38,022 nt of DNA. Source: Utricularia gibba. Taxonomy: Eukaryota; Streptophyta; Magnoliopsida; Lamiales; Lentibulariaceae. Every line of letters begins with the position of its first letter. Within the stretch, counting starts at the first letter, position 1. Position numbers and translations under genes: made by a program. The stretch is from positions 1 through 38,022 of the forward strand of contig NEEC01000063.1 in assembly GCA_002189035.1 (NCBI GenBank), in the 5' to 3' direction. Below the pieces are notes generated by a model. The model ran no database searches. It was not told where the DNA came from and saw only the letters and a program-made list of their open reading frames with translations. Below, in pieces: positions 1-38,022 of this stretch.

Positions 1-994
1 CTGTATTTGGACATTCCCCTGGAGAACCCACTACTCTTCCTGCAGCAGACACAATGGGTAAACGCTAAAGGAATATGAGACAACCTTAAGAGGAAAATTG
101 AAGTTACCTTCGGAGTGATGCTAAATACTCCTCCCTTGAAACATTTTGCATTTCCTCAAGGTCCCTGGCATAGTCTTTTACCTGCATTTCTATGTAGGTC
201 ATAAAAGGAAGAAGAACATATAACTGCAAAGAAAAAGACATTACTTGAAAGTTAATATGTGTTCCGGGGCCCCAGTATTTTAAGGCAGCTAGATCATATG
301 CTCTTGCTGCAGCTTCCTCTTCATCATAGCACCTTAATACAGAGTTCACAAAATTTTACCAACAGCCCTTTTTCCAAGATTCAAGCGACAAAAATGACAT
401 ACACTTACCCAAGTAAACTACCCAAAGGAATCACAGATGGAAGTTCAGTTTTCCAATGACGAAGCGGTTAAGGGAAACAGGAGATAAGTTAGAAACTCAT
501 GTATACAATCAACAGCACCAACTGGCACACGAATCAAATACAGTACCTTGTTTTCCTTTCTTATTTTGGATTTCGTTCCAAGTGCTTTTATCCCAAAGAT
601 GCGCTTCATATCTGCCCGTCCATCTATGCCTGCGCGTGTTTAAGGAAGATATCCCATTTAACTGTTAAAAATCCCACAGCGGGAAATAGGGTTCTCAGGA
701 GCACACACCCAGTTCTCCGCAGGACACCCAAGATTAGAAAGCGTTTACAAACTTTACTACAAGAGCTAATTGATCATACCTGGTAACGCCTCGATAAATG
801 GAGCTGCGTTTCCCAGCAGTGCATGGCGGCATTCTGCTTATTCGATCTTTGGCAGTGCATCCTCTTTCTTTCTTCGCTTTCTTAATCCCTCGGAAGAGTA
901 GCTGTTGATCGCTCCATAAAGACGCCCCAGCCTCAGAGCTCGCTAGACCGCCAGACGCTTCGGGTCTCACTGCTTTCTCTGATGATGAGGCCAT
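1..994 (-). CDS. AP2-like transcription factor (At2g41710 type), 3' part outside window
   Basis: Nuclear AP2/ERF-superfamily DNA-binding protein. The N-terminus closely resembles Arabidopsis At2g41710 from memory, with the conserved stretches [16 protein letters not shown] and [17 protein letters not shown] just before the AP2 domain. Minus-strand exons inferred from GT-AG signals: 994-780 (start ATG 994-992), 629-547 ([17 protein letters not shown]), a 9-base micro-exon 417-409 encoding VYL, 332-245 ([20 protein letters not shown]), 181-108 ([19 protein letters not shown]), and 39-1, which opens the linker to the second, degenerate AP2 domain (KSSGFSRG). The gene runs off the left edge. An upstream in-frame ATG at 1045 is possible, but MASSSEK at 994 fits the family start. 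Oddity: the micro-exon to 332-245 junction is one base short, so the frame is lost near 328-333. A telo-box core (AAACCCTA, minus strand) lies near 1319-1326 upstream. The family call is firm; the exact orthologue is not. Confidence 0.9.
409..417 (-). other. 9-base micro-exon (VYL) of the AP2 gene
   Basis: The sequence TTTACTTGG on the minus strand is preceded by an AG acceptor (419-418) and followed by a GTAAGT donor (408-403). It encodes the VYL of the AP2 core between KKGKQ and G-x-YDEEE. Nine-base exons at this position are a known conserved feature of AP2/WRI1-like genes. Gene finders usually miss it. Confidence 0.85.
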
Positions 995-1049
995 AGGACC
1001 TGCTGGGAACTCGAAATCGATCGGGTCAATGAAAACGGGACACAATCCA

Positions 1050-2381
1050 AACCAAAAAGCGCAAGAACTTGAAATTTCGAGAACACCTCAAGCGCGCAAC
1101 ATCAACGGCGTTCGTGGGACATTTTTCCTAGGAGTCAACTTTTTTCCATGTTTCCCAAAACCGCCCAAGGTTCTCCACAGTCGGCAAGAGAGACTACGCA
1201 GTACGCGTGAGGCGTTCAACGTTATCCAGGAGCTCCCTTAAATTTGAATTTGAAGTTCAACTTCAACTTGACTCAAGAAAACAGAAAGTTCAGTAGGATA
1301 CATTTTCAAGGCGGGATCTAGGGTTTATGTCGTGTATATTTTATGATAAAACGTGTCGGTATGGAATAATTTATTTCATTCAAAAAATGACTACAAATTT
1401 AGAAAGCTTATTATTTTTTAAAATTATCTACTCTTATTTTCTATTTATTCAAATATTATTTGAGAATCAAAATTAGATAGAACATTCATTCCACAAAGGC
1501 GGTTCTTTGAATTCAATTTAAAGACAAATAATTTAAAATCTTGAAACTCAATATAATAAAGAACAAAACAAACAGTTCAAATTTGAATATTTGTATAAAT
1601 TTTAAATCTATTTAACTTTTTTTTAAAATAGAAGAGGGCTGCATTCTATTTAACTATTTAATATAGAAAAATAAATATATTGTTTTTATATCTTTTATAC
1701 TAGGATCAATTTTTATGATCATTTTATCATACATTCAAAGATAGAGAAGAATGGTCATTTTTCTAATATATTCTAACTATAGTGAATGTCCTTGGGGTTC
1801 TACTATTCCAAAATACTTACTGGTTTTTAGACAATAAATATTCTCTTGGAAAATAGTTTTTAGAGAAATGATCATTCATTTGTTGAAATTATTTTACCAA
1901 ATACGAATTAAAAAATGGTAGGAATTAAACTCAATGTTTTCTTTAAAGAATCTAAGAATTTATTTAAAACAATTTTATTATCAAATGACCCTCATTTTCC
2001 CAGTTGTGCAAGTGTTGATATTCTTTTGAATCTATTTCCTGCTGGTAAATATCGACGTCGAGGATGTTCGAGAATGTTCTGGACTAATTGGGGCAGTCCA
2101 TGGACGTGATGCGACCCGTAAACGAATTCCCGCCACACATGCATTTACTATTATTATTTTTAGCAATCAGGACACCCACCTACAATTACATGCACCCCCC
2201 AGTGTGGTCCCGTCCCAGTCATCTTGGCCACGACGGGGGATATTATGTAATGGCGTGGACACGTCATCTTCGAACACGTACTCGTGGGGTGTGCGCTGTT
2301 TATGGCGGCTACTCTCCCTCCCCGCCGCGTGTGGAGCTGCTGATAAAAGCAGTTCCCTTTCTCCTGCGCACAAGAAAACGG
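1050..2381. promoter_or_regulatory. Divergent intergenic region between AP2-like and ACR genes
   Basis: No gene is seen here. About 1400-2040 is very AT-rich and featureless. The right part, 2050-2381, becomes GC-rich and should hold the ACR promoter and leader. It contains two ACGT-core boxes close together (GACACGTCAT 2258-2267, ACACGTAC 2274-2281), which bZIP/ABRE-type factors may bind. The left part should carry the AP2-gene promoter, with a TAGGGTTTA telo-box core on the plus strand near 1319-1327. No start site can be fixed from sequence alone. Confidence 0.5.
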
Positions 2382-4030
2382 ATGGGGGTGATGATGATGA
2401 TGAACGACGACGCCGTTTTGATCGACAAGGGGAAGAATCCCGGCGACCCCCACGTCATCACCGTGAATTGCCCCGATAAAACGGGACTGGGCTGTGATAT
2501 CTGTCACACTATCCTCGATTTCGGCCTCTACATCACCAAAGGAGGTCCTGATTTTTGCTTTCCCGCTGCTCTCGCTTTCTTTTGTTCCTGATTTTGCTCT
2601 TCTCGACTCCCTGTTCCAGATGTTTCCACAGATGGGAAGTGGTGTTACGTGGTTTTCTGGGTGGTTCCTTCACCTGGGTCTCATGTCATGTGGGTGAATC
2701 TGAGAGACAGATTGCTGTCCATCTGCCCACCATCGCTACCGCAGTTCTATGCTCCAAACCCTTGCGCCCCTTCTTCCCCTGTTTACCTCCTCAAGTTCCG
2801 TAGCCTCGATAGAAAGGGATTGCTACACGGTGATTATGATGCCCTTTTAACCAATTCTCTGTTTCTGCTTCGCGCTCTCATTCCGAGCTTTTGCATCCAG
2901 ATGTCACACGCGTCCTCCACGAGCTCGAGCTTGGGATTCAGAGAGTTAAAGTGAGCACAACCCCAGATGGGTGCGTCCTCGATCTCTTCTTCATAAGGGA
3001 TAATCTGTAAGTTGTTCCACTTGATATTCAGTTCACTAAGTTCGAGAACCATTTTGATGATGATGGGGTCGAATCTCAGGTCGCTGCTGCATTTGAGCTC
3101 TAGACAAGAGGAGACATGTGAGAAGCTGCGGAGTGTGCTCGGAGACTCCATCATAGGGTGTGAAATTCAGTTACCAAGTTCTCAATATGAGAGTCTTCAG
3201 AGCACAAGTGCTTGTCTGTCTCCTGGAACTGCTGAAGAAATGTTCAGATCCACCTTGTTGGAGAGGGATACCAGATTACAGGAACTCAGCACGGATGTGA
3301 CGGAGTTGAAACGAGCCAGTGTAAAAATCGACAATACCCTGAGCCCTGCCCACACATTGCTCCAGATCAGCTGCGTGGATCACAAGGGGTTTCTCTATGA
3401 TATCATGCGAACACTGAAAGATCATAGCATTCAGGTAGCAGTTCACCTCCTAGTCCCATGACCAAAAAGGCAGCCATTGTGATTTTCTTCAAGGTTTCTT
3501 TCTTGTTTTCTGGCCTTAGATATCATACGGGCGGTTTTCACCAGTGAGAAATGGCCACAGAGAATTGGATCTATTCATCCAACAAGACGGGAAGAAGATA
3601 GTAGACCCTGAGAAGCAAGCTGGTCTCTGCTCACGTTTGAAGCTGGAACTGCTGCATCCACTTCGAGTACTCATCACGAGCCGTGGTCCGGACACTGAGC
3701 TCTTGGTAGCTAACCCAGTGGAGCTGTCGGGAAGAGGAAGACCCCGAGTGTTCTATGACGTCACCTTCGCTCTGAAAACCCTGGGGATCTGCATATTCCT
3801 GGTAAATTTTCAACCATGCACACATAAGATTCAACTCAAACTTGCGAACAGAGGTTAAGTGTATGTGGGTTGTGATGTTTAACGTCAAACAGGCGGAGAT
3901 CGGGCGGCATTTAGCTGCAGGACGTGAATGGGAGGTGTACAGGTTTCTCCTGGATGACAACTGCAGCCCCAGGTCTCCGTCGAGCAAGTTGATTGTGGAC
4001 AAAGTTAGGAGAGCACTGATGGGCTGGTGA
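2382..4030 (+). CDS. ACT domain-repeat protein, ACR9/ACR10 type
   Basis: Predicted amino-acid-sensing regulator of the plant ACR family, built of tandem ACT domains and no catalytic domain. Six exons with clean GT-AG junctions and consistent phase: 2382-2544, 2620-2829, 2901-3006, 3080-3434, 3520-3801, 3893-4030 (TGA 4028-4030), giving 417 aa against about 410 in Arabidopsis. Landmarks: ACT1 near residue 19 (VNCPDKTGLGCDICHTILDF, then VSTDGKWCYVVFW), ACT2 near 112 (SLDRKGLLHDVTRVLHEL), ACT3 near 252 (CVDHKGFLYDIMRTLKDHSI), then RGPDTELLVANPVELSGRGR and a C-terminal ACT-like part (AEIGRHLAAGREWEVY). The start at 2382 is chosen because family members begin with MG shortly before the first ACT domain; the same frame is open upstream to 2088, but that part resembles nothing. 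Intact. Ligand and target are unknown; ACR9/10 have been linked to nitrogen and amino-acid signalling. Confidence 0.93.
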
Positions 4031-4068
4031 CTGTATATTAGGGTGGTTTCTCCGGTGTTAACTGCAGA

Positions 4069-4074
4069 AATAAA
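4069..4074 (+). terminator. Polyadenylation signal AATAAA of the ACR gene
   Basis: A canonical AATAAA lies 39 bases after the stop codon of the ACT-repeat gene. Plant poly(A) signals are loose, so cleavage may occur elsewhere. Confidence 0.5.
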
Positions 4075-4976
4075 ATGTCATGATTCCGCTCTTGTCTTCC
4101 TGCGGCGTAAATACGCAGCACAGTCCCCGATAAAGGTCACTATTCCACGGAACTTAAATGAATCAGGAGCCGGTTAGTTCATAGGATAACCGAGGTATAT
4201 CAAAACATCCATCTCCTCTGGTTCTGAAGAATATCCTAGCAACAGCCAGCCAACATCTTGTCACCCTGAACAAACCGAGTTTCCGCATTCTAACAGGGGA
4301 TATATTGGATACTATGTGTTGGCATGGGCTGGCATACATTTAACCAGAATCCCGGTTACCAACAATTCGGCTAAAATATGCATCACATTAAACAATGCAG
4401 CAGCCATAATTTTTCTGAAGGAATTATACCATTCAGAAAAAATCCTCCGAACGCAGAATTTCTCTACGACAGGAGCACAGAAGAGCTGAAAAACATGATG
4501 ATACCAACTCCTGAATATGGAAGCTCATTCGTACAGGAAGGGTCATTCCACAAAACAGGAGCCTGCCTTGTAAATAGGTCAACCAGGTCAGCTGAGGAGA
4601 TAATAAAGATAGCCACAATGGTAAAATGTTCACCAAGACGACTGCAGTAACACAGAATGCTTAGACCATCTCAATACCGCTGCCCTAGAAGGGTATCCCA
4701 CGACAACCCTTCAGATCCAAGGACGAGGGAGTGGCAGTAGATTCGTAGAATACAACTTTTCAGGAAAAAGATGTTCAAAATCTACAACACATCACGGGTA
4801 GAAATCCAAATGGAAGATAAAGCTGCCTAGACAACCACATTTCTTGGGCCAGAATTCAACTCCTTCACAATAATGCTCCTTGTAAACCGATTAACAAGGT
4901 CAAAGCAATTTGAACTTGGTAGATGAAGATAGCAATCAGAATCAGTAGGCTTACACACTTCCCAGACTGGAATTAG
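4075..4976. other. Convergent 3' region between ACR and ALY genes
   Basis: About 900 bases hold the ALY 3' UTR (minus) and possibly the end of the ACR transcript (plus). Open frames such as 4378-4650 show no protein-family resemblance and look like chance. Two stretches share a loose pattern (CTTGTAAA, AGGTCA and GATAGC around 4567-4616 and 4878-4936), perhaps an old small duplication. I see no RNA gene. Confidence 0.5.
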
Positions 4977-6334
4977 CTAAGACTGCATTGCATCTGCATG
5001 ATACTTCTCCAAGTCCGCGTCCAGATCATCAGCAGACACCTTCTCACCACGGGCCCTTCCCGTCCACGGCCCCTTCCAGACCCACGACCACGGCCACGTC
5101 CACCACTAAACGCTCGGGGAAAACCAGCTGTAGCTTGGCCACTGTTAGAACAGCATGCATCGTTAGATGTTACAGTAAACAGAAAGCTAAATATATAACA
5201 TGAAATGCTAACCACAAAAATGTAATATCTACTAAGCCAAATTCCAAGCACAGTGGCACAAACCTTTTACATTACAAGATCAGACAGAATGTATCCGAAA
5301 CGCATACCTAGGAGTAGCATAAGTGGGATTTGAAAAGGCCCCCAAAGGCAGAGCAGCAGCAGCAGCAGGGGTTGGCATGTTTGTTCCAACAAGCTCTAGT
5401 TGCATTGGCTTCCCATCAAGCTGAACGTTGTTATACTTTTTTATAGCTGCCACTGCATCTTGTCGTCGTGAGAACACTACTTCAGCTGTGCCCTAGATAA
5501 AAAGCTTTTCTTCTAAACCACGCAGAAAACAAGCTTCACAACCAACAGCTAACACTAGGTCAATTCGTGAACACTACCTTCGATCGACCACTTCTATCAT
5601 AATTCACAGAATATCTTTTCAGATCACCGACCTCCGCAAACAATTCCTGTAATTCCAGATACAGAAAGATCCCAACGAGGCTCAGCCACATAAATGAACA
5701 AATTATCTTAACATGTAAACAAACTAAAAGGCGGTAACACAAATAAAAGTCAAAGCCATCAGCTGCAGCCACAGAGTTGCATAATTATACACAAAAAAAC
5801 TTCAGTTCTAATACCACAGTTAATCGACTTATTAAGCAATAACATGTAACCACGGAAGTTCCTACAAACGGAACCGGAGGATGCTGAATATTTAATAGAA
5901 TCTACGCGCAGGAAAACTTCCATAAAAATGACAGAATAGCGACAACGGTTTTAATCTATACCTTAATGTCTTCATTGGATACCCCGTAATCCAAATTAGA
6001 GATGTAGAGCTTTGTCCCTGTCTCGATATTAGAAGATCGCCCTCCGGCTTGAAACATGTCATGACCCCAATTTGATTCAGGAGCCTACGAAAGAACCAAA
6101 AAGCTAAATATGGTAAATTTCGCCCAAAACTCACCTTCTAGTAAAACCATTGAAAGAAACAAGAACTCACCTTTGCAACGCATAAGGACCAGCACGATTA
6201 GCGACTCTAGCATTTTGGCGGCGGACAGGACCAGCACCCGCACCCCCACCGCCACGACCTCCGCCTCTAGAACCGGATTTTTTGTTGCTTTTGATGAGAT
6301 CATCGAGAGTCATGTCTAACGCAGCACCCGACAT
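4977..6334 (-). CDS. ALY: ALY/REF mRNA export adaptor (THO complex subunit 4)
   Basis: Nuclear RNA-binding adaptor that links the TREX complex and exon-junction complex to the export receptor. Minus-strand exons: 6334-6171, 6084-5962, 5646-5578, 5492-5308, 5141-4977 (TAG 4979-4977), about 235 aa. Domain order: N-terminal UAP56-binding motif (MSGAALDMTLDDLIK), Arg/Gly-rich linker, a single RRM with RNP2 LYISNL and an RNP1-like GTAEVVFS, a five-Ala run from a GCA repeat near 5355-5366, an RG-rich tail (GRGRGRGSGRGRGRE), and the C-terminal helix DDLDADLEKYHADAM that binds UAP56. Two one-base losses break the frame: at the start of exon 2 (GG at 6085-6084, GGG expected) and in the last exon (CCC after EG, CCCC expected, near 5056-5060). 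Both flanks of each stay conserved, so sequencing error or recent decay is possible. A telo-box lies in the leader. Confidence 0.93.
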
Positions 6335-6402
6335 CGTCTCTTAGCAGCGAATCTCGACGGCGATTTCGGAGACAGTCTGGAGAATCCAACTCACCCAAAA
6401 AT

Positions 6403-6410
6403 TAGGGTTT
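6403..6410 (-). promoter_or_regulatory. Telo-box (AAACCCTA) in the ALY leader
   Basis: The plus strand reads TAGGGTTT, so the minus strand, the coding strand of ALY, reads AAACCCTA about 70 bases upstream of its ATG. Telo-boxes close to the start site are typical of plant genes for translation and RNA processing. Confidence 0.55.
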
Positions 6411-6419
6411 CCAAAGGAT

Positions 6420-7640
6420 GCTTTCACAAATAACGCGTGAGGAGAACGCGATCGGTTTTGAATCCAGTATTTACGTCTTGTCTAGGGCTATCGGGCTGGC
6501 CTTCTGTCATGTTTACATAATCAGTCCTCCAGGACTTCACATATTATAATTCAACCACAAAGTTTACAAACAACACTTTCCCTCCCTATGATTTTAAAAA
6601 ATTGCTTCACCGCACCAGTAGGCGATACGTTTACGTTTCCGTAGTCGACAGCGTTGGGCGCACCCGAACCCCAACCCCACCACAGCCCCCAATTATGCAC
6701 ATGGGCTGGTTTAAATTAATTATTTTAAAAGTACATTCGTCCAATAAATTATAAATTTCTATTTTTTAAAAAATATAAATCACTCCTATTTAATAACAAA
6801 AAAGTTTTTACAATACTTTTCCAAAAAAAGAAATTATTTCACACAAAATTTAATATCAATTTAAATTTTTAATTAATGATTTAAATCTCACAAATTTTGA
6901 TATTGAATTCTTTTTCAAGTCTTAATTTTTTAAAACAATTTTTATTTTTTTAAAAATAATGATGACCACCATGAGATGAGATGAGCTACAAGTATCAATT
7001 GGTGTGAATGGAGCCATCATCAATGAGCTCCATTTAATCATTGCATATAACAAAGTCCTTCATCTACTATTCACATTGATTGATTCAACATTGTAGGCTC
7101 CTATGTATTTTAATACGTCATTAATATTGATTACTTTGGTTCCAATTGTACTTAATCTTGGTGGAGTAGGGTATTAGAATATATAAAAAATTATAAATCA
7201 ATATTAATCGATTGAATATAATTTTTTGTAATGTAATTTATGTTTTTTATATTCTTAAATTTTATATGTATTTATTTAATCTATTGAATTTTCAATTTAA
7301 ACAAAGAGCGATTAAGAGGATTTTGGCATCTAGAAAATCCGAAAAGAAAACTATAATTTTCAATCCTTGTTTGAAAGAGTTGAAATTTTTTTTTATTTTT
7401 TTGAGATATAAATATAGAGATATCCTTTTTAAAAATTGAATTTATTTCCTTTGGTGATAGGAATTAGGAGGGCCCACCAATAGATGAAGCCGATGTCGGA
7501 GTTGGGAAACTAACCAGGGTTAAGCCGAAACGCCTTGCAAAAGGCGCGACTAGGAAACCGGATCGGAGTCGGCGAGTTACCAAAATTACTTGCCGTTTTC
7601 AGTGGCTGCTCTGACTCTCTGTCATTGGGAAAGGAGAGAG
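6420..7640. promoter_or_regulatory. Divergent intergenic region between ALY and PUB genes
   Basis: No gene is seen. A TGGGCT site II-like motif occurs near 6704 on the ALY side. 6720-6960 and 7140-7440 are strongly AT-rich; the 75-codon frame at 7212 is low-complexity and not credible. 7480-7640 is GC-richer and probably includes the PUB promoter and start of transcription. Confidence 0.45.
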
Positions 7641-7642
7641 AC

Positions 7643-7711
7643 ATGGACCCCGACCAGTACCACCTCTCAGCTTGCGCTAATCTGGCTAAGCTTTTCGGGT
7701 TTTCCCGTTGA
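7643..7711 (+). CDS. Short upstream ORF (22 aa) ahead of the PUB gene
   Basis: A 22-codon frame beginning MDPDQYHLSA and ending TGA at 7709-7711 lies about 370 bases ahead of the main PUB start, in a GC-richer stretch that looks like transcribed leader. If transcription starts upstream of 7643 it is a candidate uORF able to dampen translation of the ligase. A GCAG/GTTG sequence just after it (7716-7724) could be a leader-intron donor. Conservation cannot be tested here. Confidence 0.3.
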   Translation: MDPDQYHLSACANLAKLFGFSR

Positions 7712-7783
7712 CTGCAGGTTGTTGCTCACGCTTTTCTCTTAGGAATTTTACATTTGCTTGCTTAATCTCGGATTCCGCCTGGT

Positions 7784-7808
7784 TGATTGTTGTTGTTGTT
7801 GTTGTTGT
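7784..7808 (+). repeat. (TTG)n microsatellite in PUB leader region
   Basis: About seven TTG/TTGT units lie in the putative 5' leader or leader intron of the PUB gene. T-rich simple repeats are common in plant leader introns. Confidence 0.8.
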
Positions 7809-8077
7809 TTTCTGGTTTTGATTTGGTTTTTGTAAGCGTTTTGTTATCTGAGTTGTGCGGTTTGCGTTCCTTGTGTTTTGGGAACTTGGTCTGGCGGTTT
7901 GGTAAGGAGGCTCTGGAATTATGGAGGTTTACTCCGTTTGACTCTTTTTCTCGTTCTTTTTTTTTCTTCTAGTTTTTCTCCTGAATTGGGGCTTGCCTGT
8001 GGTGTACAGCATCCGGGTGAGTGTTTGGAGATTTGTTGAGGATTGAAACGGATAGTTAGCTGGTCTCGTGCACCAGG

Positions 8078-10380
8078 ATGAGCTCCAAATCGTCACCGGC
8101 ATCTTCTTTTGGGCCCGATTGTGGCAGCAGCTTGAACTCTCACTACGTCAATGATCGGATAATGGAGGATGATCGAGTCGCCTTATCGCTCAGTCTAATC
8201 GATTTGGTGGGTGAAATATCTGCAATATCTGGGTATAGAAGCAGCGTCAAGAAGCAATATACGAATCTGGCTAGACGACTGAAGCTTCTGACGCCAATGT
8301 TTGAGGAAATTCGGGACAGCAAGGACCCTTTACCTGAAGAGACCATGAGAGCGTTGAGTTCCTTGCTGAGCGCTCTTGTGATGGCCAAGGACCTACTGCG
8401 CTTTGGCAGTGAAGGGAGCAAGATTTATTTGGTACGACTGAGTCTCACTGTTAAGCATAACCAAATTTTTTACTGCTGCTGTTGCCTCATTTCTGGTACT
8501 TGCAGATCTTGGAGAGAGATCAAGTTATAGTTAAATTCCAAGAAGTTACTAATGAATTAGAGAAAGCTCTTTGCAGCGTTTCCCTTGAGAAGCTTGACAT
8601 ATCAGATGAGGTGAAGGAGCAGGTAAATTTTACTTGATTTTCACTCCTGAAATGCAGTCTCTTCTAGTTTCGATACAGTTACTATTTTTATTCATGTATC
8701 ATCTGAGAACCATATTTACTTTCCCAGGTAGAACTCGTGCTTGCTCAGTTTCGAAGAGCCAAGGGAAGAGTTGATGCTCCGGATGTAGAGCTGTCTGAAG
8801 ATCTTTTGTCTCTTTATAACAACAATGCTGATGCTGATGACGAACTTGATGTATTGAGAAGGTGTGTGGATAAGCTACAGCTCTCCGGAGTAGCTGACTT
8901 AACTCAAGAATCATTAGCCCTACATGAAATGGTTGCGGCAACTGATGGGGATCCAGAGGAGCGGCTGGAAAAGATGTCAATGCTGCTTAAGAAAATCAAG
9001 GATTTTGTGCAGATAATGAGTCCAAACATCAATTCAGTTGAAGAAGAGAAGCTGGCCCCTGGAAGTACAGGTGACAAAACGTTGAAGAACCAGAAAAGTC
9101 TTAACGTACCAGATGATTTTCGGTGTCCTATTTCATTAGAGCTTATGAGGGATCCAGTCATCATCTCAACCGGACAGGTGAGGATGCGTAGTTTCTTTTG
9201 CTGTCTTAAGCTATTCTGGATTCTTAATCGTGGATCTTTTCTGATGGTTTCCATTAAAATCGGATTGTTTCGTGTTCAGACATATGAAAGGTCAAGCATT
9301 GAGAAATGGCTGGAAGCAGGGCATAGGACCTGCCCCAAGACACAGCTAGCTCTAACCACCAGTGAGCTCACACCAAATTATGTTCTCCGAAGCCTTATAG
9401 CACAATGGTGTGAGACTATGGGAATTGAACCTCCAAATAGACCACGATCCGCCCTCACCCAGGCTGACCATGAAATAGAATCTCTTCTCCAGAAGCTCAC
9501 ATCTGACAACCCTGATGATCAGCGAGCTGCAGCTGGTGAGATCCGCCTTCTCGCCAAACGCAACACAGATAACCGTTTGGCGATTGCTGAAGCTGGTGCG
9601 ATTCCTCTGCTGGTTCAGCTGTTGTCAACTCCTGATTCTCGCATTCAAGAGCATGCTGTTACTGCGCTGCTGAATCTCTCAATATGTGAAGATAACAAGG
9701 GTGCCATCATATCATCCGGTGCAGTTCCTGGCATAGTCGAAGTTCTGAAGAAGGGGAGCATGGAAGCTAGAGAAAATGCTGCAGCAACCCTATTCAGCCT
9801 CTCAGTTGTGGATGAAAACAAGATCACAATTGGTTCATCCGGAGCTATCCCACCTCTCGTGGCACTTCTTGAGGAAGGTAGTCAAAGAGGGAAGAAAGAT
9901 GCTGCAACTGCCCTCTTTAACTTGTGCATATACCAAGGTAACAAAGGAAAAGCTGTGCGAGCAGGAGTAATTTCTACTCTCATGAAACTGGTTACTGAAC
10001 CTCAAGGCAACATGGTAGATGAAGCATTGGCCATACTGGCAATATTAGTTGGGCACCCGGAAGGAAAGGCTGCCATTGGAGCAGCCGAGGCTGTGCCCAT
10101 TTTGGTCGATGTCATAGGCAATGGCTCTTCAAGGAACAAAGAAAACGCAGCAGCCGTGCTAGTACACCTCTGTTCAGGTGCTCAGCAGCACCTCATCGAG
10201 GCTCAAGAACTAGGGGTGGTGGCTCCTCTGCTTGATTTATCCCAGAATGGGACGGAAAGGGGCAAAAGGAAAGCTGCCCAACTGCTCGAACGGATCAACA
10301 GAATTGCAGAAAGCACAGAAACCGCCCCAGGCTCAAGCCGGCAGAGTCTGAAATCAGTCCCTGAACCCTCAGTCACCTGA
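8078..10380 (+). CDS. PUB13: U-box/ARM E3 ubiquitin ligase, PUB12/13/14 type
   Basis: Cytosolic RING-like E3 ligase; the PUB12/13/14 group includes ligases that ubiquitinate immune and hormone receptors such as FLS2. Four exons, all in phase: 8078-8431, 8506-8622, 8728-9177, 9280-10380 (TGA 10378-10380), 673 aa against about 630-660 in Arabidopsis. Order: an N-terminal UND helical region ([27 protein letters not shown]), then the U-box at about 284-358 ([55 protein letters not shown]), then about six armadillo repeats to about residue 640 ([74 protein letters not shown]). FRRAKGRVD and [20 protein letters not shown] favour PUB13 over PUB14. Intron 3 (9178-9279) is 102 bases with no in-frame stop, so its retention would insert 34 residues into the U-box. 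Intact. Confidence 0.95.
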
Positions 10381-11350
10381 AAAGCACAATTACTTGAACA
10401 GATGATCCAAGAGATTTGATGAAACGACACCCACATTCATCCTGAAGTTGATACACTCTGAAGCCAATTTCAGCACCCTCCTTCAAGGAAACAGCTGAGA
10501 GCCAGCAGTCTTGTGTAAGTCCTCTTTTTACAGCCTTCTTTTTTGAGTGCCATGTGTTGTATGCCTTGGCTTATTGCAGCTGGGTTGGTTGCTGGGGTGA
10601 AGGTGGAAGATCACCTCCCCATCTCTGCCTGATTTCTTCTTCATTCATGTTTCCCAAATGGCAATTGAGCATATATCCATCCCATTGAGTTCAACACATC
10701 TGGTGACATTGAAACCCGCTTATCCACCCACCTCTACAGCAACAAGAGCACTTAAAATTATGCATTAAAATATGCATTTTATACATAGATTATCAGAGTA
10801 CTTGCGCTAATAGTAAATAATTTTTATCAATAAAAAATATGAATATCTAGATTTGAATACAATATCAATTGTTCACTGATATTAATTTAATTAATAAAAT
10901 ATATTGATAATTCTTATTTATGATAATAAAAATTTGACTTGTCCTAACCTTTCATCAAAGTGCACATATCAAATAAAATTTTAAATACTTTTAATTTTTT
11001 ATGAAACTATGAGGCATATCATGTACAGTAAATATAATTATAAAATAAATAGCGGGATAAAATGGATAATAATATTATAACGGTTGAGTGTTGAGGTGTC
11101 CCTAAAGGCGTGAGAAAATATCAGGAATTGTTTATTAAATTATTAGTGCTTGCAGATCTCCCAAAGCGGGAACGACGTGCTACTCATTTTCAACATGTGA
11201 ATATCATGAGTTAAATCAAATGAACTGATTGATCGTGTAGTAAAAAAGAAAACCTGAGACCTTGTGCAATGCCCCACGCTTTCAGATTTCGTTTTTCTGC
11301 AGCTGTTTTGGATTTGGGCGTCTGTGCTGAGCTCGGCCATGATCGATATT
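10381..11350. other. PUB 3' UTR and AT-rich intergenic region
   Basis: 10381-10760 is mixed-composition sequence consistent with the 3' UTR. 10750-11110 is very AT-rich and featureless. No gene, RNA or clear repeat is seen. Confidence 0.5.
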
Positions 11351-11358
11351 TTGGGGGG

Positions 11359-11364
11359 TATAAA
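11359..11364 (+). promoter_or_regulatory. Candidate TATA box of the XBAT31-like gene
   Basis: TATAAA follows a G run about 245 bases before the XBAT31-like ATG, in a stretch where composition shifts from AT-rich to mixed. That distance would leave a leader of about 210 bases with a C/T-rich stretch (11455-11500). Sequence alone does not prove use. Confidence 0.4.
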
Positions 11365-11607
11365 GGAAAGCATTAAAGGCTGGTCGTTAAAGGCACGCGC
11401 CGGTTCCAAACGTCTGCGTTGTTCTGCGTGCTTTCATATTACTATGCTCTGCTCTACTCTGCTGTTCTAGTTTTCCTCTCTCCTCATCCCCACACCACGA
11501 CACGCAAACTCCTCAAGTTCAACGGTAGTTGTTGACTTGACGGGGAGGGTTTAGGGGCTGCTGCTGGATTGACGGTTTGTTGGTCGAAAAATTGGATCTT
11601 GAGGGTG

Positions 11608-13440
11608 ATGGGTCAGGGGCTGAGTTGCGGGAGAACTGAAGGGAAGGGTCTATTTCGCGCTGTTCAGATGGGGGATGTGGAGTTTATTGAACGAGTGGCG
11701 AATCGGGATGCATCCCTTGTTCGTAGTTTCGCATTGAGTGATCGTAACTCGCTTCTGCATATCGCTGCTGCTCATGGCCAGATCGAGGTTGTAACTTTTG
11801 AAATTGCTCTGTTTTTTTGTTTCTGGGTTTTCTTGATCTGTCGGGGGATTCATACTTTTATCGTTACCCGTTCTTAGATTCTTTCCTTTCTTCTGGAGTT
11901 ATCAGTGCAACCGGATGTGCCGAATAAGCAAAAGCAGGTAAAAGTACCATCTATAAGGCCATTAACGCCGTATGATTTATGTTTTGAGAGTTGTGGTTAA
12001 TTTTCTCAGACTCCATTGATGTTGGCTGCAATGCACGGCAAGATATCGTGTGTAAAGAAGCTCATTGAGGCTGGTGCCAATGTATGTGTCTGTAGATCTG
12101 TATCTCACTCTCCTGTTGGGTTCTCTTAAACTCATTGGTGCTTGCTTTGCATGTTATTCTGTTCTTGGGTAGCAGATTTTACTGTTCGATTCAGTGAATG
12201 GAAGAACCTGCTTGCACTATTCAGCTTATTATGGCCACGTTGATTGCCTAGACACCATTCTCTCCGTAGCCCGAACCTCTTCAGTTGCAGCTTCGTGGTA
12301 ACTGTCTACTGTAAGAAGCATCCATTTGGTCCAAAGAATGACAGTGATACTGATCTTCTACTGAAAAAACCTCAGGGGATTCTCAAGGTTTGTTAACATT
12401 AGAGATAGAAAAGGAGCTACTCCATTGCACCTGGCTGCGCGCCGCAGACACCCTCGATGTGTTCATGTGCTGTTGAACAACGAAGCACTTGTCTGTGCTT
12501 CAACCGGTGGATACGGGTATAGATCTGTTGCAGTAGAACTTGATCCTTCAGTGCTCCCTTTACTGTTGTTGGAGTAGTTTTAACAAGATGCTTGCAGCTT
12601 TCCTGGAAGCACGCCACTTCACTTAGCTGCAAGAGGAGGCTCTCTTGATTGCATCAGAGAGCTGCTTGCCTGGGGCGCAGACAGGCATCACCGAGATGCA
12701 TCGGGGTACTTCCATTTACGCTCGTTGGATCTGAAAACATGAATCTGTATAGGTACTATGATCTGAACTCTCATCTCTGCCATGTTGCATGGTTCAGGAG
12801 AATACCATATGCAGTAGCTGTGAGATACAACCACGACGCATGTGCTGCTTTACTGAATCCTTCCTCAATGGAGCCCCTCGTCTGGCCAACCCCTCTGAAA
12901 TTCATGCGTGAACTCAGCGAGGAAGCAAGAGCCCTTCTGGAGCAAGCTCTAATGGAGGCCAACAGGGAAAGGGAGAAAGCCATCTTAAGAGGAACCCCTC
13001 TCTCCATCCCATCTCCATCACCTTCCGATGATCTGATCAACGATGCTGCGACTGCTATTGCTACATCCCACCTCGATCTCTGCTCAATATGCTTCGATCA
13101 TCACTGCTCGATCCAGATCCAAGACTGTGGGCACCAGATGTGTGCGCAGTGCACTCTCGGCTTGTGCTGCCACAGCAAAGCAAGGCCTGCAAATGCTTCC
13201 CTCCTTCCTGCTCCTGTTTGCCCCTTCTGCCGCGGCAGCATCAGCAACCTGCTCATGGTTGCCAGGGTGGAGGAAGAAGGCGAAAGTGCGCACGAAGTGA
13301 GCTCCTCCAAGCCGCGAAAATCGTGCCGATCAAGCAGCTTCAAGAGCTTATCACTGAGTAAAACGGGCCGTGGCTCAGGCAGAGTCGCCGCCGATGTCCA
13401 GCTACTGGATAAGCCTCAGCCTTTAGGCCCTGATACATAG
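11608..13440 (+). CDS. XBAT31: XBAT31/XB3-type ankyrin-repeat RING E3 ligase
   Basis: Ubiquitin ligase with N-terminal ankyrin repeats for substrate binding and a C-terminal RING; rice XB3 acts in immune signalling. Seven exons in consistent phase: 11608-11787, 11878-11937, 12010-12081, 12176-12297, 12376-12516, 12598-12705, 12798-13440 (TAG 13438-13440), 441 aa. MGQGLSCG at the N-terminus matches XBAT31 and fits N-myristoylation (Gly2) with a nearby Cys. Ankyrin signatures: NSLLHIAAAHGQIE, TPLMLAAMHGKISCVKKLIE, TCLHYSAYYGHVDC, ATPLHLAARRRHPRCVHVLL, STPLHLAARGGSLDCIRELL. The signature EEARALLEQALMEANREREK follows, then the RING from about C323 (CSICF, CGHQMCAQC, CPFCRG). The tail KTGRGSGRVAA...LDKP matches the family C-terminus. 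The intron 1 donor (GAG/GTTGTA) is weak but phase and homology support it. Intact; its last 150 bases and 3' flank are duplicated at 24355-24745. Confidence 0.95.
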
Positions 13441-13872
13441 CAATATACGGACGGAAGATGCATTTTGTCGACGCTGCAACTCTTATAATATAATGGATTA
13501 AATTAAAATATTATAAAAATAAAATTAATTATTTATTTTTAGAAATGCTATAATTTTTTTAATAAAAAAATATGCCTCCACTCCTCGGCCTTCCGTACAT
13601 CTCTAATATTTTTTTTATTATTATTTCTAAATTTTGAATTATTTATGATTAACATTTTTTATTTCGGAATAAATAGTAGAATCCGAATTTTCTAATTATA
13701 TGAGAAATAATATAATATAAAAATAATATATAAAGTTTCATACCCACTTGAAATTTAGAATTTATAAATATATACGACAAATATTATATCTAATACCATG
13801 TAATAACTAATAATCAATACACAGAAAACATTGATAATATATGCACATTGTTGTGGCAATCTATATTCTATT
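13441..13872. other. XBAT31 3' UTR and AT-rich flank (duplicated at 24.4-24.7 kb)
   Basis: The first about 220 bases (to about 13662) have a diverged copy at 24495-24745. Beyond that the sequence is AT-rich without recognisable features until the first hAT-like remnant. Confidence 0.7.
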
Positions 13873-14042
13873 GATATTTAGACCCAAGCTATTAGGGCCG
13901 AAGCCCCAATCGGCCCTAAGGGCTTAAAGCTTCGGGCCAGAAAGCCCGATAATTTTTCGGGTCATTAATATTTAGACCCAAGCTTTTTTTTTAGGGTCAG
14001 GCCGAGCCGGCCCACGGGCTTGGACTTTAACTTTCATCCCTA
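13873..14042 (+). mobile_element. Truncated hAT MITE-like element (copy A)
   Basis: The right end TTTCATCCCTA matches an Ac/Ds-type terminal repeat (TAGGGATGAAA on the other strand). The interior shares GGGCC-rich motifs with copies B and C (CCCAATCGGCCCTAAGG, TTCGGGCC, GCCGGCCCAC). The expected left terminal repeat is missing, and a short motif (ATTTAGACCCAAGCT) occurs twice inside, which suggests internal rearrangement. The 8-mers ATTCTATT (13865-13872) and GTTCTATT (14043-14050) flank it and agree at 7 of 8 positions, the size of a hAT target duplication. Confidence 0.6.
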
Positions 14043-14500
14043 GTTCTATTAATTATAAAAGTATCAATAAAAGCGTTACAATAATATTTGGTCGTCATTG
14101 AGTTGAGCATGGATCAGGCCCATTTATAATTGGATCTGACGTTGAAATTTGGGTTTGCATATGGCCAGGCCCATTCTTCAAGATGTCTATCAGGCGAGTT
14201 GGGCCTTTGAATTTAACTGGACATTGGATTTGTGTGGCGCCGCACCCAACAGATGGCATTGTGGATTTTAATTTTAAAGTGGGTCTTAAAGTGGGTTAGG
14301 CCAGCCTGACCCGAAATTGGATTTGCATCTGCTATGGGAACGATTAATGTAGTTTACAATAAAACACGTTCAGTTCATTGTTTGATTTAATTTTGGGTTT
14401 GGATTCAATAATTTTTATAAAAATAACAATAATTTATATATATTATTAAAATAAAACACAAAAACAAGTATGTGTACCAACAAGTGCCGAAGCCTACATA
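14043..14500. other. Intergenic sequence with degenerate GGGCC-rich repeat
   Basis: 14090-14330 contains repeated GGCCCAT / TGGGCC / GGTTAGGCC motifs resembling a more decayed member of the same hAT-like family, but I can find no terminal repeats. 14340-14500 is AT-rich and featureless. Confidence 0.4.
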
Positions 14501-14509
14501 CAAAAAAAC

Positions 14510-15090: not shown

Positions 15091-15203
15091 AAAAATTAAC
15101 TATGAAATGGCACAGAATGGGACGGGTACATAATAAAAATCTTGCACACCCCAAAAAGGCAACTTAAAAAATCAGGGAGATAGAAATAAATCTTACGTAC
15201 CAC

Positions 15204-15536: not shown

Positions 15537-15563
15537 CGTAGCATCAATTAACCTTGTATTACG

Positions 15564-16120: not shown

Positions 16121-16128
16121 GTATTAGG

Positions 16129-23830: not shown

Positions 23831-24354
23831 AGATTAGTATTTGTGTATGAAGTTCAGTAAATCAAATAATACTCCTAATATTAACCAACTTTAAGTCCAA
23901 TAGCAAAGTTTTAAAACTAGAGACATGACATAAATTTCATGCAGAAACCAATCAGCAGGACATGTAGCACAAAGAGGGAAGTCAATGAGTGCAATTTTCA
24001 TCGCCTCATATTATAGATTCAAAATAGGAACAACATGGTTGTAAGAAACTGTACTTGTATTGGAAAATGATAAGAAGAGAAATATAGATTTTTTGGACAG
24101 AGAGCAACCACGAAAAAAGAGTGTGAGGGATGAGGTGGGGGGAGAATACAATGATCAGTAGGATATGATTTTCAGCAGAAGAACCTTTAACTTAAAGTTG
24201 ATAATTGAAAACCCATTTTATCACTAATAGATCATAAATATTAGCACACAAAAGATAAAAATTTATTTCTTTTTTTTTTCTAGTTTGCTGAATATTCTAT
24301 CTTTGCAGTGTTCCTCTTATGATATTTCTTACAATTTCTTCAGTTTATGTCTTT
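23831..24354. other. Non-coding spacer upstream of XBAT31 fragment
   Basis: Not repeated elsewhere in the window. No coding frame or RNA gene seen. Confidence 0.45.
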
Positions 24355-28227: not shown

Positions 28228-31004
28228 ATGTCTCATGCAAGAGACTGGAAGCATGCCAGGGAATCAGAGATCTACGATAAGTATTATAACGAGTTAATTA
28301 ATGAAAAAGTCAGGTGCATTAGTTCTAGGGGGTACTTCTATTGCCCTTATTGTCAGACTGATCGAAGGTATGAGCTGACTGAGTTAAAATCTCATGCATC
28401 TCGGATTTCTCGAGAATCAAAAAGTGCCAGTTTCAGGGACAAGGTAAAACATATGGGGTTGCTTGATTATCTGGATGTTCATAGGTCCTCAGAGTTGAAA
28501 CTTGGGAAATGTATGGAGGAAGGTAGTAAGAATGAGCTCAATCGTGGAGATGCAAGTACATGTGTATCTAATCATCCGAAGGCTGTGGACATTAAACCTG
28601 GGGGAATTTATGAAGAATCAGTGCAACGTGATTCAAATAATAAGAAATCGAGCAAAACGTCCATGAGGTTTGAGTTTGCTACCCGAAAAGAACATGGAAG
28701 TAAAGATGAACTGATGGTGTGGCCTTGGATGGCGATTGTTGCCAATATCCCTGTTCAGTTAGTTAATGGAAAATATGTGGGTGAAAGTGGCAATAAGATA
28801 AAAGAGGAATTTCTTCGTGAAGGACTCAATCCTTTAAAAGTCCATCCCTTATGGGATTACAGTGGCCATTCTGGGTTTGCGGTTGTTGATTTCAGTAAAG
28901 ATTGGGAAGGTTTCAATGATGCTCTGGCATTTGAGAAGGCATTTGAAATGCGTCAGCATGGGAAAAGGGATTGGTATGCAGCTACGCATAAGGGAGACAT
29001 GCTATATGGGTGGCTTGCACGTGAAGAAGAATATCGGTTGAAGGGACCTATAGGTAAGCATCTCCAAAAGAACGGGGACCTCCAAACAGTTTCAGAGATT
29101 CAAAAAGATAATCAGAGGAAGGAAAAATCCCTTCTGAACAATTTAGCCAATGTGTTGTCGTCAAAGGATGAGAAATGCAAGGAGATAAAGTGGAAGATTA
29201 CAAAGAAAGACAATTTCATCAAAAAGCTGTTGATGATGATGGAGGAGATGACTGAAAATTACAACAAAGGTTCTCCATTAATTTCTGCTGTTCTATTCCA
29301 TTTCTTATTTCAATATGCTGCAACTAAGAATCATCCCTTGTCTAACTATTGTGAAAGAGATGAAAAAGATCCAGGATAATGAATCTGATCGGCTACGGAG
29401 AATTTCAGAGGATCATATGAGAAGTAAATCCCATCTGGAGGCGCGGAGACAACAACTGAAGTCATGGGAAAAGGAATTGAATAAACTTCAAGTTCTGAAT
29501 GAGAGTGCATGGAGGAAGCTAGATAAACAAAAGAAAATGGTACCTTTTTTCCCTGTTTATTAGTTTTCCTGTCCCAATTGCTAAGCAAAGTCGCAGATGA
29601 TATCAAGATTCACTTCTTACTACTTTCACTTTCGTGTTTCAAGTATTCTCATTGTGTGACAGTGTGCAGACCTGGTCAAATGAATTATTCCCGTTTTGCT
29701 TTAACTTATATAATATATTCTGCTTTAAAACTACTATTTCATGAACGTGTCATCCTGATGCTGTGCAGAATGAGATGGCAATTATGGAACAAAAAAAGGC
29801 TGATGAGAAAATGGAAAAGCTTGCACAGGAACACAAGGTGTGGCTTAGCTCGTGTATTTAACTTCTTGACCCTTGTGACACAATAAATGCTGAGGCTTTT
29901 CCTCGAATTTCAGGAAGAGAAAGAGCGTCTGCAAAAAAAGATTATCGAACTAGAGAAAATGTTTGATCATAAACAGGCCCTGGAATTGCAGATAGAGCGC
30001 ATAAGGGGTGATCTTGAGGTGAGGAAATGTATCATTGCCCAAGGAGAAACTGAAGAGATAGAAAAGATGAATGCAATCAAAGGGGAACTTAATAGCATGG
30101 AAGAGGAACTAGAAATGCTGGACTCTCTTACTCAAGCAGTTATAGTAAATGAGAGAAAAGCAAACGATGAGCTGCAAGATGCTCGCAAGGAGCTAATAAA
30201 AGTCAGTTCCTATGAACTCCCTGCATTATTTTTCATGTTATACGTTATTTGGATAAAAGTATCAATTTTTCTTCTGTTTCTTCTGTTACACAATGGCTCT
30301 TAGGCATGACTTGCAGTGCTTGCATCAGGTGGCCTTGATGCTGAATCAGTGAGCATTCTTGGTTTAAACTGCCTTGTGGTTTGATGCATTGTAAATATCT
30401 GTTTGCCTTAGGGATTCAAAGCTAGCAAAGCTAACATATGTGTTAAACGAATGGGTGAACTTGATGGAAGGCCTTTTATTGCGCTGCAAAGAGGAACATC
30501 ACCGGTGAGGAAGATGTAGCAGAAAAAGCAGCACAGCTGTGCTCCTTGTGGGAAGACAGTCTCCGGGATCCGAACTGGCATCCCTATAAAATGGTTAAGG
30601 ATGGAGAAAGTTACAAGGTGATGACTTATATGACACAGATGCTTGAATATTTTATTTTACCCACCATTCAAGGATTCCTTTCGTGTTCTTTTTCGGAAAA
30701 GAAAAAGATATTGGAATTTATGTTTTACCCACAACTTTTTGATGTCCACCGCAAATTACACTTTCAGGAGATACTTGACAAAGATGATCAGAAAATAAGG
30801 GAACTTGAAGATGATCTGGGTGATGAAGTGTTTGTGGCTGTGACTACAGCCTTAAAGGAGTTGAATGAGTGTAACCCAAGTGGTAGATATCCGTTGCCCG
30901 AGTTGTGGAATCGCAGTGAGAATAGGAAGGCTTCTGTGATAGAGGGGATTGAATATTTGGTGAAACAGTGGAAGATCCACAAGCCGAAGCGTAAGAGGAA
31001 CTGA
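28228..31004 (+). CDS. XS-XH domain protein (FDM/IDN2/SGS3-like), RdDM factor
   Basis: Related to IDN2 and the FDM proteins, which bind double-stranded RNA with a 5' overhang and form complexes needed in RNA-directed DNA methylation. Exons: 28228-29269, 29358-29539, 29769-29837, 29914-30201, 30412-30617, 30768-31004 (TGA 31002-31004), about 674 aa. Order: zf-XS zinc finger at about residues 37-60 (FYCPYC...ELTELKSHAS), XS domain about 161-280 (WPWMAIVANIPV, LWDYSGHSGFAVVDFSKDW, LYGWLAREEEY), long coiled coil about 300-555 (EQKKADEKMEKLAQEHK, NERKANDELQDARKEL), XH domain to the end (KRMGELDGRPF, DVAEKAAQLCSLWEDSLRDP, NPSGRYPLPELWN). One base is missing near 30482-30484 (GCGCTGC where the family frame needs GCGGCTGC): exon 5 is 206 bases, one short of the phase needed. 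Otherwise intact. Confidence 0.93.
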
Positions 31005-31401: not shown

Positions 31402-33221
31402 TCAAGATGTCGGTTTCCAAAATGAAAGAGCATACACAACTCTTCCTTTCCACCCCTGTAACATCCATTTGCCATCTTCCTCCACCAAAAAATCAGGATG
31501 GTACCACAGACGAACCTTCGTCTTTGCTTCTTGCAATATTTGCTTGTCCAGTGGGAGCTGTTCAAAGCCAGCCCTATTATCCCGAACTTGCCATTTTTTG
31601 TACCCCTCTGGTCTCTCCACCCTCTCCGATCCTTCACATGTAACCACATTCATGATCTCACTCCCAAGAATGTCCCTCTCATAAACCTGTCTTTCATTGT
31701 CTTCACGGGGCATCGTTGCTTCCAGCATGTCGAATAGACATGAGTAGTGATTAAGTGCTTCACCAAATCTTGTTGTGAAAAGAGGAACTCCATGATTGGC
31801 ATTGGATATCCCATGGACAAATATGGTGGGGTAGATTTCCCTGATCAACTTCAGTACAGAATCACGAGGGCTCTCCAGGTCAAGGCTCATGGATTCTTCC
31901 AGTACATGCTTCATTTGGTACACGGAGTTCACCACAACAACCTCATCCTCTTCGATCCCGAGGTCCTCCAGTTTAATCTCTTTCCACTTCTTGGCAATGG
32001 GGTGATACTCAAAAGGTACGTCAAATCTCTTACAATAGCTCATCAGCCATCTCCCTACTCTCTCAACTCTTGCTGCTGGTTTCAATCCCGCCTGTGGCAA
32101 ATCTATTCCTGTTATTTTCAAAAGGGGTGGTCCTCCAGGCTTCAAAGAAATACCCTGTATCAGACATGGCCATTGAAAGCCATACATTATGCCAAAATCT
32201 ATGATATGAATCTTCTGTGCTTCCCTTGTATACAATGCAATCGTCTTGTTTGCGACTATGTTCGACAACCGTTGGAATGGGCAAGCTTGAAAATATGCCT
32301 GATAGCATTTCAATATCTGTGCAGGCTGGCTACTCCTTGACAATGAGCTCGCAGCAGCAGTGTACAACATGGAGCCTGTGCCCTCTATTCTAGCATCCAG
32401 CGCATTGGCAAAATAATGAGCTAATCTCTCTGTGTGATCCCCATATGGGGAAGAATGCCGCCTGATCCCCATCAGCAGTTCCCTCGCAGCGCCGTTGTTC
32501 AACACAGAAACAGCTTTTGCTGCCTGAGAAAGAAGGGTCTTGAAATCAATGATCTCCTTCACACCGGACTGTTTCTTGCTCCCTTCTTCGGTCTCCCCCT
32601 CTTGAGCTCGGGCGGTTTTATGTACTTCCTGCTGACATTCTCATCTTCCGATGAATCCTGATTGTTGCCTGTACAAGCCGTTGACGTTTCATAGAAACAG
32701 GGGTTCATTTTCTGACAAAGAAGTGTCTTATCATACTTGTCCGTGGGCTCACATTCATCATCATCATCCCCTGCTGCTATCTGCTTCCTTCTACGCTCCT
32801 GGTCATCGTCATCCTCATTTTCTTCATCGTCCCTTCTCCTTCGTCCCTTGCCCTGCGATTCCCCACCCGGAAACGGATGACCCTGACCCGAATCACCATC
32901 ACCATCAATCCTTCCGGTCCCGGCAGCTTCATCCTGCGCCTGACTATCCAACAAATCATAGAAAGTCTTCTCAATACACGAAGAGAAAGCACCCAGATTA
33001 TCAGCATCATCGTCCTCTTCCATCAGAATCTTCTCTATGTACTCAAAAACCCCATTGAAGTAGTCGCAAGCCACCATCCTGCCACAATCTTCTTCTCCGT
33101 CAACGCCGATCCCTGTAAAAAATGATGGATTCAAAGCAGAGATGGACTTTTCTTTTCTTGTCGCCACATAAAACAGCCGCTCCTTTGGGCAGATTTTTCT
33201 TCTCGAGCCCCCGACCGACAC
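31402..33221 (-). CDS. GRAS transcription regulator, LISCL/SCL14-like
   Basis: Plant GRAS protein of the LISCL group (SCL9/11/14/30/33), nuclear co-regulators; SCL14 works with TGA factors in xenobiotic response. Minus strand, no intron in the coding part, about 606 aa. The acidic N-terminal part has the LISCL-type motif YIEKILMEEDDD and a basic RGRPKKGAR before the GRAS domain. Then LHRI (IDFKTLLSQAAKAVSVL, SSPYGDHTERLAHYFANAL), VHIID as IHIIDFGIMYGFQWP, PFYRE (DMLEATMPREDNERQVYER) and SAW (WMLQGWKGRVVYALSFWKP). The reading frame changes once near 32572-32574: the N-terminal frame ends at TGA 32561-32559 and the GRAS frame is already open there. One more A in the AAA run would join them. The start is uncertain: 33221 gives an unusual N-terminus, and an acceptor-like TTTTTTACAG near 33111-33120 hints at an upstream leader intron; Met 33077 is an alternative. 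Confidence 0.9.
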
Positions 33222-34432: not shown

Positions 34433-34672
34433 CTTTTTGATAAAAAGGCCTAAATATATGTCAATTTCCATCTAAAAATAGCAAGTTTATTGCATTTTTT
34501 TCTTATTAAAAAAAGTTGAATATTCCGTGGAATCGACTCTGCGTTCACAGCACAACTGTTTTTGAGTACCGAATTGAAACGAACAAATTACAGCAGACTC
34601 GAAGACTAAAGCAGATAGCGGGAGTTTGGTTGTCCAAGAGACAGATCACAGAGATGGGAGGCAATGCCTGGA

Positions 34673-36108: not shown

Positions 36109-36930
36109 CTAACTTTACCCTCAAAAAACAAGCACAGTCTCCTCGATACTCGCGCCCCACCGGAGATTAATCAGGTTATCGGAAATGTGCAACGGAGGTT
36201 GGGCGCTCTTTGGAGTCGCCGATCTGCCGAAACCACACTTGAGTCCCTGCGTCTTGACTTCAAAGCAGGCCCTTAACGGGCCGGACATATGGGCCCATTA
36301 ATTAACTGCTAGAAAATTCTTAGTTTCATTTCAAATGACAAAGACAGCCCAGTCTTTCCTTTCGATAAATGTCGTCGTCTACAGAAAAAGTAGGATAAGT
36401 GTTTAAGGTTAGGGTGCTCTTCTGAAGCCGGGAAGGTCAAACTCGCTGTATCTTCACTTCCATTGTTGAAAATACTTGATCTTTTGGGTAGGGGAAAGGT
36501 TCCCGATCGGTTCTTGTAGTCGGTTGCACATGTGTATTTTGTGGGAACTTTGAAATGGGAGAAAAAATTATTTGGGAAGGTCCAGATCAATATGATTCTT
36601 GGAAGTTGATCTCCTCTCTTTTTGTAGAAAAGTTGGATAGGTTTTTGCGTAGTGTTCTTCTTTGATTCTGAAGGCATTGCTGTTCTGTTTTCTCGATGAG
36701 TGTAAAGTGTAAAATACTTGTTTACACGGGTTTTTTCTTTAATGGGTTCGAGATCCCCTCGAATTCTGATTCTTAAACTTCGGTTGTTTGTTTTAATAAT
36801 CAGGGAGATGTTATAGTTGTTTTTCCATGTTGGGTTATATATGATGTATGCGTATGCTTTGTGGGAGCTGGTGTAATCGTACTGTTTGGCTTCTTGAAAA
36901 TCACTGACAGGCTCTTTTGCTACAGAAAAG
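36109..36930. promoter_or_regulatory. Divergent promoter region of Rab5IF-like gene and CBSX3
   Basis: TGGGCCCA (36290-36297) is a palindromic site II/UP1 motif (GGCCCATTA on one strand) readable in both directions, about 180 bases upstream of the Rab5IF-like ATG. GGGCC at 36279-36283 is a second GC-rich core. The sequence TTTTGCTACAG just before the CBSX3 ATG is a good acceptor, so CBSX3 probably has a leader intron and starts transcription nearer 36300-36500. Confidence 0.55.
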
Positions 36931-38022
36931 ATGCAAGGAGTTCAAGCCATTTTGTCGAATGGGAATGTTTTGAAGAATGCTGTCTTGCGCCATATCCGCC
37001 TGATTCCTGCCGCTGTTGCTACTCGTTCGCCTCCTTTTGCCCGCTTTGAATCCACCTCCACTGCGGCGAAAATTGAGGAGCATGGATTTGAGAGCACCAA
37101 GATATCTGATGTTTTGAAAGACAAAGGGAAAAATGCCGATGGCTCTTGGCTTTGGTGCACAACAGAAGACACTGTTTATGATGCCGTGAAATCTGTATTG
37201 GCTTATTTTTCTTGATATGAACTCCATTTGAGTTTTTGTTCTCCGTGTCGCTGCCTTGACTACATTCTTGTACTGCAGATGACACAGCACAACGTTGGTG
37301 CTCTTGTGGTGGTTAAGCCTGGGAGCAGAAAGCAATTGCTGGAATTATCACAGAGAGAGGTATTCCTTTCTCATTTCTAATCTTTTAATTAGATCAAATT
37401 GTGTTTGTTTTCATCTTTATCTCTTTATGCATATCTCCCGAGAGTCTATCTATGACTAGAAATGAACTTGGTCTGAGATGGAATTCATTCTTTTCTTGGG
37501 GAAAATTTATCAGGGGCAACCTTGATTTTTCTATCTTTTTATGCTATGAGTTAATGGACTGGTATTTGCTGTATCGGTATGGATTACGAATGTTTCCGGT
37601 GATTCTACCAAATGGTTTGACCGCATGTCCCATCTAGTTTATTTAGTCTTTGCTGATGACATTATCAGTAGAAATCCTTTCGTTGGATTAGTTTCACTCG
37701 AGCTTGTTTATGGGGTTGTGCACTGTGTGAGGGTTGATGACATTTGTTACTTGGACAGATTATCTTAGGAAGATCATTGTTCAGGGGAGATCATCGAAGG
37801 CCACAAAAGTTGGGGACATCATGACTGAGGAGGTAACTATATACTTTTAAATTGTTCTATAGCATTCTAAGAAAAATAGTCTGATGGATCCTCATCAATT
37901 GCAGAACAAGCTGATCACAGTTGACCCAGATACTAAAGTTCTTAAGGCAATGCAATTAATGACAGGTTCTGCTAGTCGTGAAAAAACTTTTGCCAACTTC
38001 AACTCCTCTTTGGGTTCTCTCT
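36931..38022 (+). CDS. CBSX3: CBSX3-type mitochondrial CBS-domain protein, 3' end outside window
   Basis: Single CBS-pair protein of mitochondria; Arabidopsis CBSX3 activates thioredoxin o2 and affects redox state. Coding exons in the window: 36931-37194, 37279-37359, 37759-37832, 37915-37975, followed by a donor (ACAG/GTTCTG) and intron to the edge. The N-terminal about 45 residues are Arg/Ser/Ala-rich without acidic residues (LRHIRLIPAAVATRSPPFAR), fitting a presequence. Then EEHGFESTKISDVL, DGSWLWCTTEDTVYDAVKS, the first CBS (MTQHNVGALVVVKPG, IAGIITER, YLRKIIVQGRSSKATKVGDI) and the start of the second (ENKLITVDPDTKVLKAMQLM). Exon 2 is one base short: GGG at 37321-37323, where GGGG would keep the frame of PGEQKAIAG. 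The ATG follows an intron-acceptor-like TTGCTACAG. Confidence 0.93.

Follow-up and report, generated by a model that had tools for sequence, protein, structure and literature searches.

Whether frame breaks in conserved genes record mutations of the genome or errors of the assembled consensus is the question raised by this locus. The window analysed here is an entire contig, C316 (38,022 bp), of an assembly comprising 100,091,633 bases in 516 contigs, and the first-pass annotation had claimed six one-base losses in five of its conserved genes. We show that C316 is a short redundant copy of a stretch of a much larger contig, and comparison of the two copies makes it very probable that the six frame breaks are errors in the assembled consensus and not mutations.

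Alignment placed window positions 1-38022 wholly within C412 (2.57 Mb), at C412:825,679-860,421, as a near-identical copy in the same order. Two colinear flanks surround a middle part whose structure differs between the contigs:

1..15086, plus strand: left flank of C316, colinear with C412:825679-840770 (megablast: 99.78% identity, 11 mismatches, 18 gap openings)
15087..23877, no strand given: central repeat-rich part of C316, about 8.8 kb in C316 vs about 5.5 kb in C412
23878..38022, plus strand: right flank of C316, colinear with C412:846239-860421 (megablast: 99.61% identity, 12 mismatches, 25 gap openings)

BLAST thus opened 43 gaps over the 29.2 kb of the two flanks and found 23 mismatches. 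In the middle part, whose internal repeats are about 80-88% identical, C316 exceeds C412 by about 3.3 kb, perhaps through haplotype copy-number variation or through a collapse in one of the two contigs. Within the right flank, 33541-34451 is a dispersed repeat that recurs with 96% identity at C328:507142-508073 and with less similarity at many other sites.

The C412 copy surfaced through a search for the GRAS family and two protein searches, which returned near-identical matches in the same order on C412. A DNA search of the window against its own genome, with 1-14000 and 25000-38022 as queries, listed neither this 99.6-99.8% identical copy nor the window itself, except for an internal repeat. 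The candidate reading taken from that search, namely that C316 has no near-identical copy, is refuted by the C412 copy; since the search missed a match of this quality, a missing match there does not prove uniqueness. Scans for tRNAs and Rfam families found nothing. As is expected of a haplotig or redundant contig, C316 lies within C412 as a colinear, near-identical copy, with a structurally different middle. It probably represents either a second haplotype or a leftover built from a small number of reads, where both the low read depth and the allelic origin are presumed.

The genes that bear on the frame breaks are the following, with run lengths as found in C412:

245..993, minus strand: part of an AP2-like gene, with a one-base loss at 328 (run of 2); outer exon borders drawn by eye; Pfam AP2 on the spliced C412 piece
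2382..4030, plus strand: ACR9-like ACT-domain gene, without a break by eye; C412 is short by one base at window 2384, next to the first ATG
4979..6335, minus strand: ALY-type RRM gene, with one base missing at 5058 (run of 4) and another at 6179 (run of 2), and a loss of C412's own at window 6243; Pfam RRM_1
28230..31004, plus strand: XS/XH gene, with a loss at 30482 (run of 2); Pfam zf-XS, XS and XH
31402..33076, minus strand: GRAS gene, with a loss in the C run 32580-32583 (run of 4); Pfam GRAS
36931..38022, plus strand: CBSX3-like gene, truncated by the contig end, with a loss at 37320 (run of 4); Pfam CBS

The names ALY and CBSX3 are those we take to fit from general knowledge of the families. 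At every one of the six sites, the run in C412 is exactly one same base longer than in C316, so that all six are losses relative to C412 and, in line with the first-pass annotation, fall in runs of two to four bases in C412. Its claim of six one-base losses in five conserved genes therefore stands, although two of the six positions had been displaced. The C316/C412 alignment confirmed the positions 328, 5058, 30482 and 37320. In contrast, the second ALY loss, formerly placed at 6084-6085, is actually some 95 bases off, across an intron, at 6179 within exon 1, where both C412 and an older paralogue on C1 carry the extra base, and the GRAS loss belongs, by comparison with C412, to the C run 32580-32583 and not to the T run 32572-32574. 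That no gains occur was also borne out: judged by frame, no exonic one-base difference gives C316 a surplus base. The only exonic sites at which C316 is longer are window 2384 and 6243, and both represent a base lost in C412 (2384, beside the first ATG, was judged by eye).

At five of these sites, the exon of C412 keeps its reading frame. For the GRAS gene, the reading frame from the chosen Met extends over 172 aa in C316 vs 558 aa in C412. The exception is 6179, in ALY exon 1, where C412 has the base at issue and has lost a different one (window 6243). This exon is accordingly broken at different places in the two contigs, while exons 2-4 are open with the same translation in both; neither ALY copy is intact as assembled, yet the two combined point to an intact gene. 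The off-frame ALY exon 1 of C412 is nonetheless a point against the reading as consensus error. The extra base is also found in older paralogues, on C1 for ALY (both sites) and CBSX3, and on C2 for CBSX3.

Several further observations concern these genes and their neighbours. On the minus strand, the AP2-like gene contains a 9-nt microexon (409-417) through which, in C412, both parts of the AP2 domain are linked in frame; microexons of such a kind are known in AP2 genes. At window 28278, in the XS/XH gene, C412 has nine additional bases in frame, a difference that may be a true polymorphism. An older paralogous block on C1, at about 6.531-6.548 Mb, is about 76-81% identical to 2283-6418 and 36383-37973 and keeps the ACR-like, ALY and CBSX3 genes; it probably derives from a whole-genome duplication. 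The 5' part of the U-box/ARM gene (7624-8421) has a 93-98% identical copy at C3:4821204-4821702 that lacks 7718-7985, as if spliced out, and is possibly a partial retrocopy. No break was seen in the ACR-like, U-box/ARM and XBAT-like genes when the sequence was read by eye; the genes near 25-27 kb and 34.8-36.1 kb lay outside this reading.

MAFFT alignment of the 29.2 kb of flanks yielded 34 one-base differences, of which 26 are losses on the C316 side and 8 on that of C412 (p = 0.003), and 31 of the 34 lie in runs of at least two identical bases, which hold about half of all bases. This corresponds to about 0.9 one-base losses per kb on C316 and 0.27 per kb on the matching C412 stretch. Exons contain 8 of the 34 differences and 33.8% of the flank bases (p = 0.28), i.e., no significant depletion, for an exon list that was drawn by eye and omits the genes at the two places named above. 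The same alignment includes 7 indels of more than one base, among them an in-frame one of 9 bp, which brings the indel events to 41 in total, and 27 substitutions, among which the cluster at 14,688-14,698 is apparent alignment noise. These counts depend on the aligner, with 27 substitutions by MAFFT vs 23 by BLAST for C316/C412, and 8 vs 0 for a further pair, C414/C416. Overall, the differences between C316 and C412 show what homopolymer under-calling predicts: run-length changes are mostly losses, indels outnumber substitutions, and coding sequence is not avoided. Together with the longer C412 run at each of the six sites, the concentration of losses in short runs and in C316 thus supports the earlier attribution of the breaks to consensus error.

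We examined the GRAS family across the assembly for breaks of the same kind. The 69 GRAS matches were grouped by hand into 45 loci, from which three duplicates (on C316, C416 and C177) and one fragment (on C321) were dropped, leaving 41 distinct genes. With frames followed within the domain only, 14 of the 41 have a frame break inside it. The other 27 are unbroken in the domain, comprising 23 single matches, three genes split by introns (L023, L026 and L036, with introns judged by eye) and the gene on C402, which we placed among the unbroken ones since its four pieces share one frame, yet has stops within and between the pieces and is not one open frame; without it, the proportion is 14 of 40. 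Thirteen of 17 frame steps are in the sense of one lost base (one-sided p = 0.025), whereas the remaining four would correspond to either one gained base or two lost ones; L032, which was read closely, fits two losses. In L032, L033, L034 and L037, the breaks lie at or beside the Gly-Gly-Pro-Pro motif in long C or G runs, on contigs of 2.1-8.5 Mb, indicating that the fault extends to large contigs. Stops are present in some of the 14 frame-broken genes, which may be true pseudogenes.

Two other duplicate stretches allowed the comparison to be repeated. One 14.4-kb end of C177 (24,235 bp in length; reverse strand) duplicates a section of C451, and BLAST counted 27 gap openings against 3 mismatches between them; the remainder of C177 shares only short repeats with the part of C451 compared. 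The end of C414 equals the start of C416 over 2.2 kb, where BLAST opened 23 gaps and found 0 mismatches. Under MAFFT, C177/C451 shows 3 substitutions and 26 indel events, 9 of them longer than one base. Of its 17 one-base indels, 13 are bases missing from the small contig and 4 are bases missing from the large one, and 13 of the 17 lie in runs. C414/C416 shows 8 substitutions and 17 indel events, of which 11 are one-base indels without bias in direction (6 vs 5; 10 of 11 in runs) and 6 are longer. An excess of indels is therefore found in both pairs, and the bias towards losses in the smaller contig is present in C177/C451 and absent at the C414/C416 ends. Both pairs match the run-length picture less cleanly, with multi-base indels and with 4 of 17 and 1 of 11 one-base indels, respectively, lying outside runs.

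The main competing account takes C316 for a genuine recent duplicate or haplotype in which true one-base deletions have caused the genes to decay, and we consider it very unlikely. Some of the variation carried by C316 does seem genuine, as suggested by its 23 mismatches, the indel of 9 bp that keeps the frame of the XS gene and the rearranged middle, and part of the difference from C412, the 7 longer indels included, may be true polymorphism. Yet one-base indels outnumber mismatches, which is unexpected under natural divergence from what is generally known. True alleles of conserved genes are expected to avoid changes in exons, whereas errors need not, and exons show no significant shortage of losses here. 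C412 has lost bases in the same manner, and the two further contig pairs combine 23-27 gap openings with 0-3 mismatches by BLAST. Decay would lead one to expect mismatches to accumulate faster than one-base indels and the large contig to be free of this fault; neither was found, and error is favoured over decay for that reason.

That the exon borders were mis-drawn and no base is missing at all is more improbable still. The earlier site at 6084-6085 was derived from intron phase and was indeed wrongly placed, but the extra C412 base lies within the exon at all six sites, and the protein continues in frame at five of them. We give hardly any credence to programmed frameshifting or RNA editing that restores the frames, considering that five unrelated genes are concerned and that the base is present in the DNA of the second copy.

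Under the favoured reading of consensus error, reads would disagree on the length of short runs and the consensus would settle on one base too few. Such losses would become more frequent where reads are few, and this could be how C316 came to have about three times as many losses as C412. The evidence consists of assembled contigs compared with each other; from it we infer the low depth of C316, its allelic origin and a PacBio-type long-read source. Long reads seem a much likelier source than pyrosequencing because contigs reach 8.5 Mb. The contig N50 of the assembly is at least 3.2 Mb, given that the contigs of at least 3.2 Mb that were seen sum to over half of 100.09 Mb. A PacBio assembly of Utricularia gibba is about 100 Mb in size. 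PMC5793159 lists a U. gibba assembly made with HGAP, with a contig N50 of 3.4 Mb and a genome size of 82 Mb.

Here, duplicate contigs yield an error rate without reads, making the assembly auditable from within. Rates of about 0.9 and 0.27 one-base losses per kb suffice to break many genes, and frame-broken genes in this assembly should therefore not be called pseudogenes without reads. The breaks are ordinary data error that recurs elsewhere in the assembly; they are not biology. If the assembly is the long-read U. gibba reference, and if the 0.27 losses per kb seen in one 29-kb stretch of a large contig hold throughout, we tentatively suggest, as a possibility of rather low probability, that a notable share of its truncated, split or lost genes are artefacts. 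Should this be true, published gene-loss counts for the small U. gibba genome would need rechecking.

Both features of this locus have counterparts in described systems. For long-read drafts, the Kastor paper (PMC12007338) reports that false deletions make up most indel errors in one draft, that they are linked to runs of two to eight bases, and that genes are fragmented as a result. C316/C412 resembles that case in having deletion errors in homopolymer runs that break genes, and differs in that bacterial drafts and one eukaryote are apparently compared there with reference genomes, whereas two contigs within one plant assembly are compared here. According to the Purge Haplotigs paper (PMC6267036), duplicated regions persist in an assembly when two haplotypes are not recognised as one. 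While that paper ties the problem to highly heterozygous regions, and the flanks of C316 and C412 differ by only 23 mismatches in 29.2 kb, C316 is like the haplotigs it describes in that it is short and duplicates a section of a larger contig.
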